From Streptomyces sp. NBC_00569 (lineage in GTDB: Bacteria; Actinomycetota; Actinomycetes; Streptomycetales; Streptomycetaceae): a DNA stretch of 64,000 nucleotides. Below are positions 2,548 through 57,875 of the stretch, piece after piece; position 1 is the stretch's first letter; every line of letters starts with the position of its first letter. The DNA lies in NCBI RefSeq assembly GCF_036345255.1, contig NZ_CP107783.1, positions 10,223,001-10,287,000 on the forward strand, in the 5' to 3' direction. The translations under genes were made by a program, and so were the position numbers. Under the pieces are notes generated by a model. The model searched no databases, was not told the origin of the DNA, and worked only from the letters and a program-made list of their open reading frames with translations.

Positions 2548-3807
2548 ATGATCGGCCACCAACGGGACCGGGGACGACAAGCGGGACCGCTCTTCGAGTG
2601 GGGGATCAGCAGACTGCTGCTGATGATGTTGGTGTTCGGCCTGGTCTCCCTGCCGGCCACGGACGGGAACGACGGGGAACTCGCCATCTACCAGCAGTGG
2701 CTGTCCGTCTTCCAGTCCGGGAGCTTCCCGGTAAGTGACGAGACCTGGCAATACCCCCCGGGCATGTCTCTGGCAGTCCTGGTGCCCGCGCTGCTGCCAG
2801 TGCTCACCTACAAGCACGCTTTCCTCCTGGCCGCCTTCCTGGTCGACGCCGCCGTGTTCACCGCGCTGGTGCGCACCGGCCGTAAAGAAGGGCGCAGCAT
2901 GATGGGCGCCTGGGTCTGGACGATCGGCATCCCGTTGCTCGGGGCGATGCCTTACGCACGCTTGGACATGACGGTCACAGGCATCTGCGTAGCCGCTCTG
3001 CTCTGGCTGCCCACCCGTGCCCGAGTCGGGGGAGCCCTGGCCGGCGTCGGAGCAACCATGAAGCTCTGGCCGGTGCTTGTGCTGCTGGGGGTCGGGTCGG
3101 GAGGGGCCATGCGTGAGGCGTGGAAACGTGCCCTGGGAGCCGCGACCGTTCTCTGCCTGGCGCTCGGCACCGTACTGCCAGGGGCGTGGTCCTTCCTCTC
3201 CGGGCAGCGAGATCGTGGTCTCCAGATCGAGTCGTTCGGCGCGCTGCCCTTCCATGTGGCCCGCCACTTCGGCTGGTCGGGGCAGGCGGAGATGGCCTAT
3301 GGCGCGATGCAGTTCACGGGACCGTACGTAGACCTTGTGGCACACGCACTCCTGGTACTGAATGTCCTGGGACTGGCCGGGCTGGTGTGGCTGAGGTTGC
3401 GCCTTCCGGCAAGCTTCTTCACAGGCGCCACGCCCTCCTTCCTGGGACTCGCCGCTGTGTTGCTCTGCATCTTCACCAGCCGGGTCTTCAGTCCTCAGTT
3501 CATGATCTGGGCCGTGGGAATCACCGCCGTCGGCACCAGCTGGCGCACATCAGGGCTGCAGATTCCGGCCCGCATGGTCCTCGCGGCATGCGGTTTCACC
3601 TCAGTCCTCTACCCGTGGACCTACTGGAGCGTCATCAACAGCACTTGGTCCGCTGTCGTCACGCTGGCCGTCCGCGACGGGCTGCTGCTAGCCGCCGCGG
3701 TGTTCCTCCTGCGCCCGCTCTGCACCGCAGCCAAGACCAGGCCGGTTCAGGCAGGTGGGCTGGTACCACGGCCACATGCGGCGGACGAGCCGGTGGCCAC
3801 CGGCTGA
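2548..3807 (+). CDS. GT87/DUF2029-like polytopic membrane glycosyltransferase
   Basis: This 419-residue protein has about ten hydrophobic segments. It resembles the GT87 (DUF2029) group of polyprenyl-phosphate-mannose-dependent glycosyltransferases of actinobacteria, which work at the membrane on extracytoplasmic glycans. Supporting motifs are QYPPG in the first large loop (about residue 73), ARLDM (about 140), where such enzymes place a conserved acidic residue, and KLWPVL (about 172). The ATG at 2548 is preceded by a good Shine-Dalgarno stretch, GAAAGGAA, at 2534-2542; an upstream ATG at 2512 lacks one. The gene appears to stand alone, with a hairpin downstream at 3984. The substrate cannot be inferred. 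Confidence 0.75.
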   Translation: MIGHQRDRGRQAGPLFEWGISRLLLMMLVFGLVSLPATDGNDGELAIYQQWLSVFQSGSFPVSDETWQYPPGMSLAVLVPALLPVLTYKHAFLLAAFLVDAAVFTALVRTGRKEGRSMMGAWVWTIGIPLLGAMPYARLDMTVTGICVAALLWLPTRARVGGALAGVGATMKLWPVLVLLGVGSGGAMREAWKRALGAATVLCLALGTVLPGAWSFLSGQRDRGLQIESFGALPFHVARHFGWSGQAEMAYGAMQFTGPYVDLVAHALLVLNVLGLAGLVWLRLRLPASFFTGATPSFLGLAAVLLCIFTSRVFSPQFMIWAVGITAVGTSWRTSGLQIPARMVLAACGFTSVLYPWTYWSVINSTWSAVVTLAVRDGLLLAAAVFLLRPLCTAAKTRPVQAGGLVPRPHAADEPVATG

Positions 3808-38090: not shown

Positions 38091-38638
38091 TCCCCGAAGG
38101 CCGCGCTTGTGCCTCGTGAGACATGCCTCAATCTGAAGAACGCGGGCTGGTGTGTCCGAAACGGCGCGGGGCTGGCGCCAGCGGGTGCGGAGGCGGTGGT
38201 GGGTCCTGTCCGAAGAAGTCGAGTGCGGCCTGCGGGCCGTGATCGCGGCGCGCATGGCGCACTCGTCCAGGTCCCAGACCTTCTCGCGCGCCGTGTTCGT
38301 TGCGGGATGAGCAATGGACGATCAATGACGCCAGGCCGCACACCTGGGCCCAGGCGCGAGCTGGCGCCCGGCAAGTGCCACCTATTCATCAGCCCTCGGC
38401 CTTCAAGGCAGTCGGTGGCAGAGCCAGGCCCACAGGGCGTTGACCGTCGCGCCGTGGTCACCAGCTCGAAACGCAGTCGGGCATCCAGGCAGATCTTGTC
38501 GAAGAGGTCGGCGTCAGGCCGGGTCCCGCAGGGTGTACCAGGTGAGGAGCACGACGACATCTCGAAGACGAGGAGATCGTCGCTGCCCTGAAGGGCGGGG
38601 CCGAGGCCGGAGCCTGACCGCGCGGCGGGCGGCCGGGT
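38091..38638. other. Intergenic region without a supported gene
   Basis: ORFs on both strands here are rich in Arg, Pro and Ser and look like noise. No hairpin or repeat stands out. Confidence 0.4.
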
Positions 38639-50239: not shown

Positions 50240-50429
50240 CCGTCCCTCAGGGCCCATGCCGCCCGGATATGGGGAGGGGAGGTTATCCGGGATCCAGACG
50301 TGAAGCGGGGTGCGTTCGCCGGGCCTCAGCCCCGCCGGCCGTGGTGGCCTGTCGTCTCCAGGGGCTCCGTGTTGCGGGGAGGGCGCCGCGGACGGCAACT
50401 GCCGGCCGTGCTTGATCGTCCCTTGCTGT

Positions 50430-52490
50430 ATGACCACACCATCCCCAGAGCCGCTTCCCTGGCCTCACTGCGGTCACGGAGCTGCCCCGGACGATCCGGT
50501 GGGCTGTAACGGCATTCGCGTGCTCGGCTACACCGCCTGTCTGGCTCACCTTGCTGACCCCGAGCGGGCTGTTTACCTGGCCGGCCTGGAGCCCGGAGAC
50601 GATGTCGATCACCGCGGCACGTCCTTCACTGCCCCACTCCTCAGCGAGCTACTCGGCGCTCTTCGTGACCCTGGCACCGGACAACCTCACCTTGGCGTCG
50701 CCGGGTTCGGGGCGGCAACCTTCGAGGGCGACGCCGGGTTCGGGGCGGCGACCTTCGAGGGCGAAGCCTCGTTCGAGTCGGCGACTTTCAAGGACATGGC
50801 CTGGTTCGGGTCGGCGAAGTTCAAGGACATGGCCTGGTTCGATTCGGCGACCTTCGAGGACACGGCCGGGTTCGGGACGGCGACCTTCGAGGGCGAAGCT
50901 GGGTTCGAGTCGGCGACCTTCGAGGGCGACGCTGGGTTCCGGTCGGCGACCTTCAAGGGCGACGCCGGGTTCGAGTCGGCAACCTTCAAGGACAGGGCCT
51001 GGTTCGATTTGGCGACCTTCGAGGACGACGCCTGGTTCGAGTCGACGACCTTCGAGGGCGAAGCCGCGTTCGATTCGGCGACCTTCAAGGGCAGGGCCTG
51101 GTTCGGGGCGGCAACCTTCAAGGACAGGGCCGGGTTCGGGGCGGCGGCCTTCGAGGACCTCGCCGGGTTCGAGTCGGCGAGCTTCAAGCGGAGAGCGGGG
51201 TTCGAGTCAGCGAGCTTCAAGCGGAGGGCTGAGTTCGAGTCAGCGAGCTTCGAGTGCGGCGCATGGTTTCGATCGGCGACCTTCGAGGGCAGGGCCGGGT
51301 TCGGGACAGCGACCTTCGAAGGCAGCGCCAGGTTCGAGTCGGCGACCTTCGAGGGCGACGCCTGGTTCGGGGCGGCGACCTTCAAGAGTCCGGTTGATCT
51401 TGGGCCGTTTGTGTGTGCCGGAAGGGTGTCGTTGGTTGGTGCGGTGTTCGGCGGTCCGATGACCTTGCCGTGCGTGGCACGTCGGGTGGAGTGCCGGCGA
51501 ACCCGTTGGATGTCGACAGCCGAACTACGGCTGCGCTACACAACGGTGGACTTCTCCCATGCCGTCTTCGAGTACCCCCTCACGATCGCCGCGGAGGCCG
51601 CGCCCTTCGTGCTCTCCGACGGGCGGCCGGTGACAGAACAGGCTCTTGCCGGCGCGCCCGACGCCACGGTGCGAATAGTTTCGCTGCGTGGGGTGGACGC
51701 GGCCCATCTGGTCCTCGCCGACGTCGATCTGTCGGGATGCCTGTTCACCGGGACCGTGCACCTGGACCAGATTCGGCTGGAGGGCGCATGCACCTTCGAC
51801 ACGGTCCCGCCCGCAATGCATTGGCGGGGCTGGCGTCCGATCCGGTTCACCCAACGCCGCACCCTCGCCGAAGAGCACCACTGGCGCGCGAGCCAAGCAG
51901 GGGCCGTTCCTGGCTGGAACGTGGCCGTGTTCGGCGCCGGGCGCGTCGGGCCGTTGCAACTGGCACCGGTGTACCGCGCGCTTCGCAAAGCGCTCGAGGA
52001 TGGCAAGCACGAGCCTGGGGCCGCCGACTTCTATTACGGGGAAATGGAGATGCGCCGCCACGCCGACGACATACCCCGAAGCGAGCGGGGTCTTCTGACT
52101 GCCTACTGGGCGCTGTCTGGCTACGGCATGCGCGCTTCCCGGGCGCTGGCGTGGCTCGGCGCCGCCATGCTCGTCACCATCGTGCTGCTGATGGGCCTCG
52201 GTCTCCCGAAGGACACCCCGAAGCAGGCAGCGACCGGCACCGTCCCGGCCGGCGGCGGCAAAGTCACTTTCGAGATCGACGAGGCAGATCCCCAGAACCC
52301 CACCGGGGAAAGGCTCACCGGCGAGCGTTTCGACAAGGCCCTGAACGTCACGCTGAACTCGGTGGTGTTCCGCTCCGCCGACCAAGACCTGACCACGTCC
52401 GGCACCTACATCGAGATGGCGTCCCGTGTGACCGAGCCCATCCTTCTGGGCCTTGCGGTCCTGGCCGTCCGTAACCGCGTCAAGCGCTGA
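50430..52490 (+). CDS. Large pentapeptide-repeat protein with membrane C-terminus
   Basis: The 686-residue protein has a short cysteine/histidine-bearing head (WPHCGHGAAPDDPVGCNG and GYTACLAHL, possibly metal-binding). About 23 decad units of the type GFGAATFEGD / WFESATFKDR follow (about residues 88-325), predicted to form a right-handed quadrilateral beta-helix. A second group of diverged repeats comes next (AAHLVLADVDLSGCLFTGTV), then YYGEMEMRRH. Two membrane segments close it (ALAWLGAAMLVTIVLLMGLG and ITEPILLGLAVLAVRN-like). Such C-termini resemble two-helix channel modules. The start at ATG 50430 is chosen over 50310 because the family head begins there; the ribosome binding site is weak. 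Confidence 0.75.
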   Translation: MTTPSPEPLPWPHCGHGAAPDDPVGCNGIRVLGYTACLAHLADPERAVYLAGLEPGDDVDHRGTSFTAPLLSELLGALRDPGTGQPHLGVAGFGAATFEGDAGFGAATFEGEASFESATFKDMAWFGSAKFKDMAWFDSATFEDTAGFGTATFEGEAGFESATFEGDAGFRSATFKGDAGFESATFKDRAWFDLATFEDDAWFESTTFEGEAAFDSATFKGRAWFGAATFKDRAGFGAAAFEDLAGFESASFKRRAGFESASFKRRAEFESASFECGAWFRSATFEGRAGFGTATFEGSARFESATFEGDAWFGAATFKSPVDLGPFVCAGRVSLVGAVFGGPMTLPCVARRVECRRTRWMSTAELRLRYTTVDFSHAVFEYPLTIAAEAAPFVLSDGRPVTEQALAGAPDATVRIVSLRGVDAAHLVLADVDLSGCLFTGTVHLDQIRLEGACTFDTVPPAMHWRGWRPIRFTQRRTLAEEHHWRASQAGAVPGWNVAVFGAGRVGPLQLAPVYRALRKALEDGKHEPGAADFYYGEMEMRRHADDIPRSERGLLTAYWALSGYGMRASRALAWLGAAMLVTIVLLMGLGLPKDTPKQAATGTVPAGGGKVTFEIDEADPQNPTGERLTGERFDKALNVTLNSVVFRSADQDLTTSGTYIEMASRVTEPILLGLAVLAVRNRVKR
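50700..51390 (+). repeat. 30-base periodic repeats coding for pentapeptide units
   Basis: Units near GTTCGAGTCGGCGACCTTCG followed by AGGGCGACGCCG recur every 30 bases, about 23 times, with base differences. The array is the coding sequence of the repeat helix and is also open in other frames, which produces long spurious ORFs. Confidence 0.85.
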
Positions 52491-52607: not shown

Positions 52608-52696
52608 GTGGAGTACCCCGTCGCTGTCGCCCTCGCCGAGGCCGTGCCGACGCTGCCCCGCGGCAAGGGCTGGTGGTACGAGATCAAGCTCGACGG
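52608..52696 (+). pseudogene. ATP-dependent DNA ligase, 5' fragment
   Basis: GTG 52608 starts VEYPVAVALAEAVPTLPRGK and the fragment ends in WWYEIKLDG, which contains the catalytic lysine motif KxDG of LigC/LigD-type ATP-dependent ligases. It is interrupted by the transposon-ended cassette at 52697. Joined to 54368 through the CGACGG duplication, the frame continues as KLDGHRTILWRD. Confidence 0.8.
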
Positions 52697-54367
52697 TTCT
52701 CCAGACACCTCGCGATGTCTCATTCGGGTAGGTCCCGGGGCCGCCCGTAGCTGGGGAAGGGCGGGAATTTAGGCTTCCAGGAGGACGCGGCGCGAGAGCT
52801 GCTCAGCGGCAGCCCGGCACCGTCCAGGAGAGCACTCTGGTCACGGCTGCTGCTTCGTGCGGGTGGCTGAGGCTTGTTGGGCGTCCGCGCCGGAGCTGAC
52901 GTGTCGTTGGGTCTCCTGCGGGCCGTGCCAGTCCAGGCACATCACGGTGGCGTCGTCTTCGAGCCGCCCGCCGGCAGCGTCCCGGACTGCGGACGTCAGC
53001 ATCAATGCGGTCTCCCGCGGGTGCAGGCCCCGGGTGCGCTCCAGCAGGGCAGGCAGGTCGACCTTCTCCCCGTGCCGTTCGACCATGCCGTCGGTGAACA
53101 TGAGCAGACGGTCACCATGGCGCAGATCGAGGTCCTGAACACGGTAGGGCAGCGTCGTGAACTCCGACAGCCCGAAAGGATGGTCCACCTCGCAGGTGAT
53201 CACCTCCACAGCGCCCTCGCGCATGCGCAGTGGCCAGGGGTGTCCCGCGTTGACGAGCTGGGCCCGCCCGGTGCGGAGATTGATGCGCAGCAGCTGCCCG
53301 GTGGCGTGCCCGTGGCCGTGGTCGACGAGTGCCCGGTCGGCCCGATGGGCCTGTTCGGCCAGGCCGGCTCCTGCGCGGCGGGCCCCACGCAAGGCGCTCA
53401 CCAGGACCGTGGCAGCCAGGGCCGAATCGAGGTCGTGGCCCATGGGATCGGTCACCGACACGTGCAGTTCGTCCCGGTCCAGGGTGTAGTCGAAGGTGTC
53501 GCCGCTGAGGTCTTCGGAAGGCTCCAGGCTCCCGCACAGCGTGAACTGCGCGGCCTCGCACGACAGAGACGAGGGAAGCAGCTGGTACTGGATTTCCGCT
53601 GCCAGGGTGGGCGGTCTGGAGCGTTTGCCCCAGGTGTAGAAGTCGGTGAAACGTCCGTTGGCGATCACGATGTAGGCCAGGACATGGGCGGCTTCCCCGA
53701 CCTCATCAAGGACGTCCTCGCCGGGATCGGCCGGCAGGAGCAGTTCCAGCAATCCGATCGCATCCCCCCGGTTAGTGACCGGCACGATCACCCGCTGCCC
53801 CTGACCGGTCACCTCCTGATAAAGCCGTTGAGTGCGCACCACCTGCTCGTAGACACTGCCGAACAAAGGGATCCGCTCCACCCCCCGCCCATCCTCCGCA
53901 GGGGCGGTCGACAGCCGCGCCACCGCCTTCCCTGTCAGGTCCACGATGAGGAAAGAGACCTTCGTTGCCTCGAAACGCCGCCGCAGGTCCTCCGCGATCA
54001 CGTCGACGGCATCCACGGGCGCCGCCGTCTCGGCTGCCGTCAGCAACCGGGGAAGTCCACTCTGCCCACCACTCACGACCGCAGTCCCTTCCACCAGCCC
54101 CGCCTACCAGCCTGAGAATCACCACAGCGAGCGTCAACACACAAAAGCCACAATAAGTGCAGATCGCTGTGTTCTGTGTTCACGGAAATGAGTTTGCTTC
54201 CCGACGTCCGACCGCCGCGGACTCAGCCGTCACGACTACTCCAGCCACGACCCGACAACGGGCTGGCCGTCTCCGCCCCGCTGCTGAGCAGCAAAGCCGA
54301 GACACACAGGCGCCCCAGCCCGTATCGAGGGGCCCATGTCTCATGAGACACGGCAAAGTCTGGAGAA
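52697..54367. mobile_element. Transposon-ended cassette carrying a SpoIIE-type phosphatase gene
   Basis: The 1671-bp unit has perfect 10-bp terminal inverted repeats, TTCTCCAGAC (52697-52706) and GTCTGGAGAA (54358-54367), with a second matching block TGTCTCAT a few bases inside each end. It is flanked by the direct repeat CGACGG (52691-52696 and 54368-54373), a target-site duplication. It holds one gene, a minus-strand phosphatase, and no transposase. Removal with one CGACGG restores the ligase frame. I cannot assign the IS family from these ends. Confidence 0.85.
52841..54094 (-). CDS. SpoIIE/PP2C-type serine phosphatase with sensor domain
   Basis: The 417-residue protein has an N-terminal GAF-like sensor domain ([20 protein letters not shown] ... 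[20 protein letters not shown]) and a C-terminal PP2C_SIG (SpoIIE) domain. Metal-binding motifs are [10 protein letters not shown] (usually GGDxYD), [13 protein letters not shown] (usually DVMGHG), [10 protein letters not shown] and DDATVMCL. The metal-binding aspartates remain, though the first motif is unusual (Ser-Gly-Asp-Thr). Such phosphatases act on anti-anti-sigma factors; none is encoded nearby. The start GTG 54094 is uncertain. It is the only gene in the transposon-ended cassette, with about 145 and 270 bases of flanks. Confidence 0.85.
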
Positions 54368-54620
54368 CGACGGACACAGAACCATCCTGTGGCGCGACGC
54401 CGAGACCGTACGGCTACAGGCCCGGTCCGGTCGGACGGTCATCTCAGCGTGGATGGATCTGGCCGTGGCGGGCATGAACTCGCTACGCCCCGGCACGGTC
54501 CTCGACGGGGAGGCTGATCTACAACGAAGGGCGGGTCGACTTCGCGGGCGCGCAGTTCCGCGCGGCCTCAGGCCCGGTCCGCGCCCGCGAACTCGCCGCG
54601 GTGCTCCCCGCCTCTTACGC
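54368..54620 (+). pseudogene. ATP-dependent DNA ligase, second fragment
   Basis: After the CGACGG duplication the text reads GHRTILWRDAETVRLQARSG, then DLAVAGM and RPGTVLDGEA, conserved ligase segments. A two-base loss near 54512 shifts the frame; the other frame goes on as IYNEGRVDFAGAQFRAAS and PVRARELAAVLPASYA, after which homology stops near 54620. The gene was therefore damaged by more than the insertion. Confidence 0.8.
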
Positions 54621-54662
54621 AACCGGAGTGCGAACAGGAAGTTGTGGATCTTCCAACCGCGC

Positions 54663-57246: not shown

Positions 57247-57262
57247 ATGAGAGGCGTCTCAT
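57247..57262 (+). promoter_or_regulatory. Hairpin covering the ribosome binding site and start codon
   Basis: ATGAGA-GGCG-TCTCAT is a 6-bp stem with a 4-base loop. Its left arm and loop contain the Shine-Dalgarno GAGAGG and its right arm ends in the first two bases of the start codon ATG (57261). Folding would hide the translation start. Confidence 0.4.
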
Positions 57263-57875
57263 GGTTTCTACTAAGAAGTGCACTCCGCGCATCGTAGGTG
57301 TGTCGGCCGTCGTCGCTCTGCTCTTGGGAGCAGGCGGCGTGGCCAACGCCACGGCTCTGCCGTTGGCACGCGGTGGCCCAACGGCGGTATACGCGGTGGA
57401 CAGGTCGGTGCCGCCGCCATCACCCAACACGCCGAACACGCCGAACACGCAGAAGGGGACGGATCCGTGTGATGTCCAGGTGTGCACGGACTATCAGCGG
57501 TTCCCGAGCCTGCCGCCGCAGAAGTCGGTGCCGAACACGCCGAACACGCAGAAGGGGACGGATCCGTGTGATGTCCAGGTGTGCACGGACTATCAGCGGT
57601 TCCCGAGCCTGCCGCCGCAGAAGTCGGTGCCGAACACGCCGAACACGCAGAAGGGGACGGATCCGTGCGATGTCCAGGTGTGCACGGACTATCAGCGGTT
57701 CCCGAGCCTGCCGCCGCAGAAGTCGGTGCCGAACACGCCGAACACGCAGAAGGGGACGGATCCGTGTGATGTCCAGGTGTGCACGGACTATCAGCGGTTC
57801 CCGAGCCTGCCGCCGCAGAAGTCGGTGCCCAACACAACGAACATGCCGAACACACCGAACACGCCAAACATGTAA
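57261..57875 (+). CDS. Secreted protein with four identical 33-residue cysteine-pair repeats
   Basis: A signal peptide (MVSTKKCTPRIVGVSAVVAL, then LLGAGGVANA with cleavage near Ala-Thr) leads into a 170-residue exported region. Four identical units follow, each reading PNTPNTQKGTDPCDVQVCTD then YQRFPSLPPQKSV. Each unit has one CDVQVC pair that could form a small disulfide loop, in a Pro/Thr/Asn-rich frame. The protein ends in further PNT/PNM repeats. No sorting signal or membrane anchor is visible. I recognise no family; possibilities include a surface or adhesive protein, a spore coat component, or a secreted metal-binding peptide precursor. The start follows GAGAGGCG. Confidence 0.8.
   Translation: MVSTKKCTPRIVGVSAVVALLLGAGGVANATALPLARGGPTAVYAVDRSVPPPSPNTPNTPNTQKGTDPCDVQVCTDYQRFPSLPPQKSVPNTPNTQKGTDPCDVQVCTDYQRFPSLPPQKSVPNTPNTQKGTDPCDVQVCTDYQRFPSLPPQKSVPNTPNTQKGTDPCDVQVCTDYQRFPSLPPQKSVPNTTNMPNTPNTPNM
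57452..57847 (+). repeat. Four 99-base tandem repeats
   Basis: Units begin at 57452, 57551, 57650 and 57749, exactly 99 bases apart. They are nearly identical, differing by a few silent bases, for example GTGTGATG against GTGCGATG. The identity suggests recent unequal exchange or slippage. The last unit changes at its end (CCCAACACAACGAAC). Confidence 0.9.

Follow-up and report, generated by a model that had tools for sequence, protein, structure and literature searches.

The DNA analysed here is a stretch of 64,000 nucleotides from Streptomyces sp. NBC_00569 (contig NZ_CP107783.1, positions 10,223,001 to 10,287,000), referred to below as the window. It contains a unit of 1,671 bp (52697-54367) that interrupts a gene for an ATP-dependent DNA ligase, and the insertion point is motif I (KxDG) of that ligase. 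The most probable reading, at roughly 0.86, is that the unit belongs, as a cassette without recombinase genes, to a Streptomyces transposon family with site specificity for motif I (K-x-D-G-[YHFW]-R) of ATP-dependent ligases. Such a cassette would be moved in trans, as a circle, by four genes (A, B, C, and D) that are carried by larger elements. The end structure of the unit and its position at an nGACGG-flanked motif I match those of the ligase-targeted family described below.

The unit and its empty site

The unit and the gene that it interrupts have the following features.

52608..52696 (+): 5' part of the ligase (VEYPVAVALAEAVPTLPRGKGWWYEIKLDG), ending in motif I; unbroken alignment to ligase loci L238 and L240
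52691..52696 (+): left copy of the core, CGACGG; single copy in the empty site
52697..52706 (+): left inverted end, TTCTCCAGAC; exact
52716..52723 (+): left inner block, TGTCTCAT; left-type end, 9-bp spacing from the left inverted end
52841..54094 (-): cargo gene, PP2C/SpoIIE-type phosphatase of 417 amino acids; Pfam PF07228 (SpoIIE), 7.2e-36
54343..54350 (-): right inner block, TGTCTCAT; right-type end, 7-bp spacing; in the palindrome 54337-54350
54358..54367 (-): right inverted end, TTCTCCAGAC; exact reverse complement of the left end
54368..54373 (+): right copy of the core, CGACGG; second copy relative to the empty site
54368..54629 (+): 3' part of the ligase (DGHRTILWRDAETV...); frameshifted after VLDGEA, truncated

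A sequence-only reading of the window had described perfect 10-bp inverted ends, a second shared block, and CGACGG directly outside each end, and all of these were found to be exact. The right inner TGTCTCAT block is part of the palindrome TGTCTCATGAGACA. That reading had also proposed that removal of the unit with one CGACGG rebuilds the ligase motif, and joining the flanks in this way does restore the ligase frame through KLDGHR. The ligase is otherwise decayed. Relative to the homologue at the empty site, a single gap shifts its frame shortly past VLDGEA, and no homology is seen beyond about 54629.

The uninterrupted ligase that was to be expected in a relative is present. When plasmids were searched by tblastn with the joined peptide, uninterrupted ligases were found, the best of them on a plasmid of Streptomyces sp. 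NBC_01445 (92% of 78 residues). At the DNA level, this empty site and the window ligase align at 91% identity across 399 bp, with a single gap. The counterparts of the two window flanks in the NBC_01445 locus are 2952-3092 and 3087-3350, a six-base overlap, and CGACGG occurs once there and twice in the window. A 287-amino-acid relative is present as an open frame in NBC_00147. The motif itself is well conserved, with KxDGxR kept in 118 of 120 ligase relatives (the best 120 of 326). Another ligase, on plasmid p1 of Streptomyces longhuiensis (L239 3001-6231), stops early and is directly followed by another site-specific integrase gene pair.

In the 10.3-Mb genome to which the window belongs, the two-block pattern has five exact matches, and its reversed control has none. 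Four of the five belong to two identical copies of the unit, the one in the window and one in the opposite arm of the chromosome, a placement that fits the terminal inverted repeat of a linear chromosome. The remaining match, at 9257170, is a solo end that does not lie in a ligase. The ten-base end by itself is no rarer than chance (with one mismatch allowed, 4 in the window against 3.0 expected), so the rarity of the window ends lies in the paired two-block arrangement. A weak right-type end, TTCTTCAGAT-7-TGTCTCAC, is present at window position 38140 (-), and tblastn found no recombinase gene of the element family in the window.

The cargo gene had been read as a GAF-PP2C phosphatase. The SpoIIE/PP2C part of this assignment held, and the GAF part did not, as no Pfam GAF model matched at 0.01. 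The phosphatase is under purifying selection, with a ratio of nonsynonymous to synonymous substitution rates (dN/dS) of 0.12-0.19 against 8 homologues (12 were tried and 4 were skipped for gaps or incomplete coverage).

Two neighbouring genes were also noted. A pentapeptide-repeat protein of 726 amino acids (Pfam Pentapeptide_3; 50310-52490, +) is encoded directly upstream of the window ligase. An open reading frame of 204 amino acids (57261-57875, +) consists of about four near-identical tandem units of about 33 residues (NTPNTQKGTDPCDVQVCTDYQRFPSLPPQKSVP) and by eye looks secreted.

Ligase motif I as the target of the ends

A search of 392 Streptomyces genomes for the pattern TTCTCCAGAC-N5..11-TGTCTCAT placed no requirement on the flanks. 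The wider sample behind the element family consists of these 392 genomes of one genus, plasmid records, and loci of phosphatase relatives. Two-block ends were found in 34 of the 392 genomes, with varied cargo between paired ends, and the backwards control gave none throughout. A total of 54 places were listed. Of these, 49 were in tested stretches, and after removal of two that were duplicates over 120 bases, 47 distinct ends were left. The tested set excludes both window copies, with four ends between them, and the second chromosome-arm place of G254. Six loci (L127, L129, L131, L135, L153, and L164) apparently form one orthologous group; they are counted separately within the 47 and were merged in the flank clustering described below. 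Two types of end are present, a left type with a spacer of 8-10 bp (n=23) and a right type with a spacer of 7 bp (n=24).

The position of each end was compared with motif I by a strict test, K-x-D-G followed by an end or an end followed by D-G-x-R, in the correct frame. This test was passed by 33 of the 47 ends (16 of 23 left, 17 of 24 right), against a background over all positions of those loci of 3.7e-5 and 8.7e-5. By homology of the 600-bp outer flanks to 30 intact ligases, 34 of the 47 ends were assigned to ligases, against a single match among 205 control stretches taken from these loci. A first run, without queries of the EPKWDGYR kind, had given 25 of 47, and the figure rose to 34 when two intact ligases of that kind were added. 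Either the strict motif or ligase homology is present at 38 ends, and L126, the left end of L132, and L138, assigned by eye only, bring this to 41. When the tblastn queries were limited to the three ligases found in the window genome, 18 of the 43 loci L126-L168 matched. By these comparisons, a ligase is nearly always the target of these ends and not an accidental one.

No mobile element that targets ligase motif I was found in the open-licence literature, preprints excluded, in the titles and abstract starts of the matches listed. One paper in which both search concepts occur (PMC2647930) is, by its passages, unrelated.

Cargo, movement genes, and proposed mechanism

The sequence-only reading had regarded a lone phosphatase between such ends as unusual. 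The unit is instead one of many. Its description as a transposase-free cargo unit cleanly inserted in a ligase gene is supported by the empty site in relatives and by the other cargoes between the same ends. These include GPP34 (L126), TetR and a thioesterase (L130), a methyltransferase (L132), an MMPL transporter and a histidine kinase (L145), and a pentapeptide protein with an ALF-repeat protein (L158); a pentapeptide-repeat protein is also encoded directly upstream of the window ligase. The cargo proteins of L133, L144, and L146 are without a Pfam match. L146 is a unit of just 545 bp, and L142 is one of 587 bp with little coding room. Nine cargo proteins were compared with PADLOC. The L132 methyltransferase matched mad2 (2.7e-13), a match that covers the methyltransferase part, and no family was found for the other eight.

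Larger elements with the same ends carry genes for movement, a further point in favour of the transposase-free cargo reading. In the full elements the order, from left to right, is a tyrosine recombinase (A), a recombinase-fold protein (B), a large tyrosine recombinase (C), and a small protein of 137-142 amino acids (D). An intact four-gene element with the same ends is located in ligase motif I at L230, a locus of Streptomyces sp. NBC_01023. A and C keep the R and HxxR, and by eye A also keeps H..Y. B has a degenerate catalytic set that is without the H, and its first R position is R in 26 and H in 21 of 49 proteins. Pfam gave nothing convincing for B or D; for C, a match to Phage_integrase stayed below threshold (0.0032). 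Structures were compared with VIA-align, which re-ranks Foldseek's own best chains.

These movement genes bear on the reading of CGACGG. It had been taken for a duplication, and it is better read as a 6-bp recombinase core, because elements with the same ends encode tyrosine recombinases. The mechanism may be as follows. A-D, acting in trans, would pair both ends and circularise the element. The joint of the circle would be GTCTGGAGAA-6 bp-TTCTCCAGAC, which has the symmetric layout of a tyrosine-recombinase crossover site. The circle would then recombine with the nGACGG core of a ligase gene, and the insertion would leave one 6-bp core on each side. The circle, the action in trans, and the core as crossover region are suggested by the layout of the ends and by the published behaviour of strand-biased circularizing integrative elements (SE elements) and of GInt elements. 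Cassettes could arise by internal deletion, with cargo taking the place of the four genes; remnants of A and D are present in two cassettes. By eye, the ligase arms beside the core have no notable similarity to the element arms.

It is very unlikely that the unit is instead a mobile insertion cassette (MIC) with insertion sequence (IS) ends, with CGACGG as the 6-bp target-site duplication left by a DDE transposase acting in trans. A MIC is a passenger gene between IS (DDE) ends that is without a transposase and is mobilised in trans. The window unit is similar in having a passenger gene between element ends and no transposase, and it may be similar in being mobilised in trans. A DDE cassette would also show inverted ends and a short direct repeat, as are seen here. 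However, the elements that have these ends and carry movement genes encode tyrosine recombinases. The sequence-only reading had called for a search for an IS with the same ends and a transposase, and no DDE transposase was recognised by eye among up to five longest open reading frames in each of 11 two-ended elements, part of which were also compared with Pfam, a search that was not exhaustive. In addition, DDE transposons usually do not target so narrowly as one codon position, and these ends occupy a single codon position in divergent ligases almost exclusively.

Several observations weigh against a recombinase-driven, ligase-specific family. Three four-gene elements were found in ligases, of which only one is intact and two are damaged; gene A of the G522 element has an in-frame stop at codon 118 of 483 aligned. 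The model of B is of moderate confidence only (mean pLDDT 73.9, pTM 0.47). In the window genome no relative of A was found at E 1e-3 (14 candidates were scored), and no helper was seen. Among the 34 genomes with exact ends, A is present at 70% identity or more in three (G175, G354, and G128), and five others have distant relatives only. Since a close relative of A is found in only 3 of the 34 carrier genomes, this suggests that most cassettes are stranded. Six of the 47 ends are without a sign of a ligase (three of L148 and one each of L161, L166, and L168), and a recombinase subclade with such ends (L148, L227-L229) is located at non-ligase sites. Finally, among 21 two-ended ligase insertions, just 6 have the same core on the left and on the right; the two cores differ by one base in 10 and by two bases in 5. 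These 21 leave out L090, which is recombinant, and L018, in which the right end is one base off.

In the 15 unequal pairs the odd bases are on either side. Unequal cores would be in keeping with the transfer of six donor bases described in the literature, and decay of dead ligases accounts for them as well. A polarity of the cores, in which the left is native and the right is copied as in the SE rule, was considered by codon logic, with L022 and L038 in its favour. It was dropped because the intact relatives of L158 read KQDG, which shows that decay reaches the left core as well. At L148 (6306-13554), two tandem left ends (6306 and 7553) precede one right end, like a cassette stacked on a full element.

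More distant relatives of A are found in other genes. Seven loci (L203, L204, L207, and L212-L215) have them at an LTH(F/D) motif of ComEC, with Pfam Competence confirmed for L203 only. At L205 (5977), a related element lies in an EF-G gene (Pfam GTP_EFTU) at a KDGHR codon run, in the orientation opposite to that of the ligase cases. At L201, a distant A relative is apparently in an ECF sigma gene, as judged by eye. Different recombinase lineages thus seem to have different protein-coding motifs as targets.

The four-gene order resembles that of SE elements most, a likeness drawn here from their description and not from SE sequences. SE elements are reported with the core intA-tfp-intB-srap, a median size of 15.7 kb, and an origin in Gammaproteobacteria and no other taxa (PMC10214605). 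In architecture, the four core genes (a tyrosine recombinase, a recombinase-fold protein with an incomplete catalytic set, a large recombinase, and a small protein) would correspond, and a 6-bp spacer between the ends, few selected target sites, and the lack of a mobilization system are similar (PMC10214605). In contrast to what is described there, the present elements are in Streptomyces, target ligase motif I, and include cassettes of 0.5-4.6 kb without core genes. SE-type core genes are absent from the window unit, and it is by architecture alone that its four-gene relatives fit the SE order. For SE and GInt elements, recombination is described as needing all four genes, and the reports give either a spacer of 6 bp or findings that agree with cuts staggered by 6 nt (PMC10214605, PMC5385486). 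The latter is described for GInt excision circles (PMC5385486).

GInt elements look similar in architecture, in that ginABCD comprises three integrase-like genes and a small protein, with variable cargo, site-specific insertion, and excised circles (PMC5385486). Unlike the present family, which has a 6-bp core only (the six-base overlap at the empty site), they are described with imperfect direct repeats of 10-17 nt, and they carry their own operon, whereas the window unit has none of the four genes (PMC5385486). Their reported insertion sites are an ABC-transporter gene, ssb, and a reductase gene, and the text contains neither Streptomyces nor ligase (PMC5385486). Tn554-related transposons share actinobacterial hosts, including Streptomyces, an ordinary and a very long tyrosine recombinase, and often a TnpC-type partner, but they are described with two recombinases and no counterpart of B (PMC3414803). 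The elements of the present family go beyond a set of TnpA, TnpB, and TnpC, since they have B as a further recombinase-fold gene. None of the three papers (PMC10214605, PMC5385486, and PMC3414803) contains the word ligase. The window unit is placed in none of these groups, because of the taxon limits of SE elements and a likeness drawn without SE sequences, the longer repeats of GInt elements, and the two recombinases of Tn554-related transposons. By analogy, it would work like a non-autonomous member of the SE/GInt/Tn554-related group, and ligase targeting with single-gene cassettes would be new.

Independent insertions and their meaning

Ligases of at least four kinds are interrupted. Joined flanks read EIKLDGHR, EPKWDGYR, QPKFDGYR, and EVKQEGQR, and intact relatives exist for all four. 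When flanks were clustered at 75% DNA identity, with phosphatase loci and plasmids included, 27 strict left flanks gave 20 clusters and 29 strict right flanks gave 22. The elements are far more alike than the flanks, and the insertions are thus independent. For example, the elements of L063 and L015 are 98% identical and their left flanks 53%, and the window element is 91% identical to that of L016 with flanks at 53% and 47%.

The phosphatase copies can also be followed through a tree. Of 157 phosphatase relatives, 80 were surveyed, and the tree has 58 copies, 29 of them with at least one end and 24 with a ligase kind assigned by eye. On this tree the ligase kind, for those 24, must change at least 6 times. 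The presence of ends needs 6 changes; one capture followed by losses fits this, and several captures do too.

It is extremely unlikely that the cassettes spread between ligases by homologous recombination, with no recombination system of their own. One apparent exchange between cassettes is found on the L090 plasmid, where the left flank is 100% identical to that of L016 and the right flank is 94% identical to that of L011, both of which are in S. diastatochromogenes, a species whose strain ATCC 12309 carries a cassette. This exchange seems to have happened once. The flanks of different ligase kinds mostly have about 42-61% DNA identity, which should be too low for such spread, and the boundaries fall at the same base beside the core. 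There is next to no chance that a single ancient ligase insertion was inherited and spread with its flanking halves, which diverged later: L020-L031 and their relatives share a left flank and look orthologous, and ligase halves often decay, but this account is already contradicted, as the ligase halves would need to evolve many times faster than noncoding element ends (53% against 98%), an empty site exists at 91% identity, and no interrupted ligase comes as near to the window ligase (L012 is the best, at 67.5% over 77 residues) as P0035, which is uninterrupted (69.8% over 86).

A site-specific cassette family would explain why a number of Streptomyces ligase paralogues are split. Two intact ligases of the L158 kind adjoin Ku on linear Streptomyces plasmids (L234 18-1954 and L235 27-1954), which suggests that the targets include end-joining ligases; two intact relatives of another ligase kind that were examined do not adjoin Ku. 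If the integron-like reading given below is true, the recombinases read codons that cannot be changed without killing the ligase, and every paralogue, including the Ku-linked ligases of linear plasmids, would stay a target. Precise excision would then re-activate a ligase, since the L133 gene, once joined, still reads as an open frame for a ligase.

The four-gene tyrosine-recombinase elements are poorly understood, and they are here extended to Streptomyces with a defined target. Cassettes without their own recombinase carry single genes, and this explains how the phosphatase gene can travel alone. It is possible, at somewhat less than even odds, that Streptomyces has an integron-like traffic of single-gene cassettes that dock at ligase active-site codons, so that insertion turns a ligase off and precise excision turns it on; the ComEC and EF-G lineages hint at a general strategy. 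If the action in trans is true, the ends and the four genes could possibly serve as a tool for site-specific integration in antibiotic producers. The repeated disruption of ligases on linear replicons, some of them Ku-linked, is a biological question that can now be tested.
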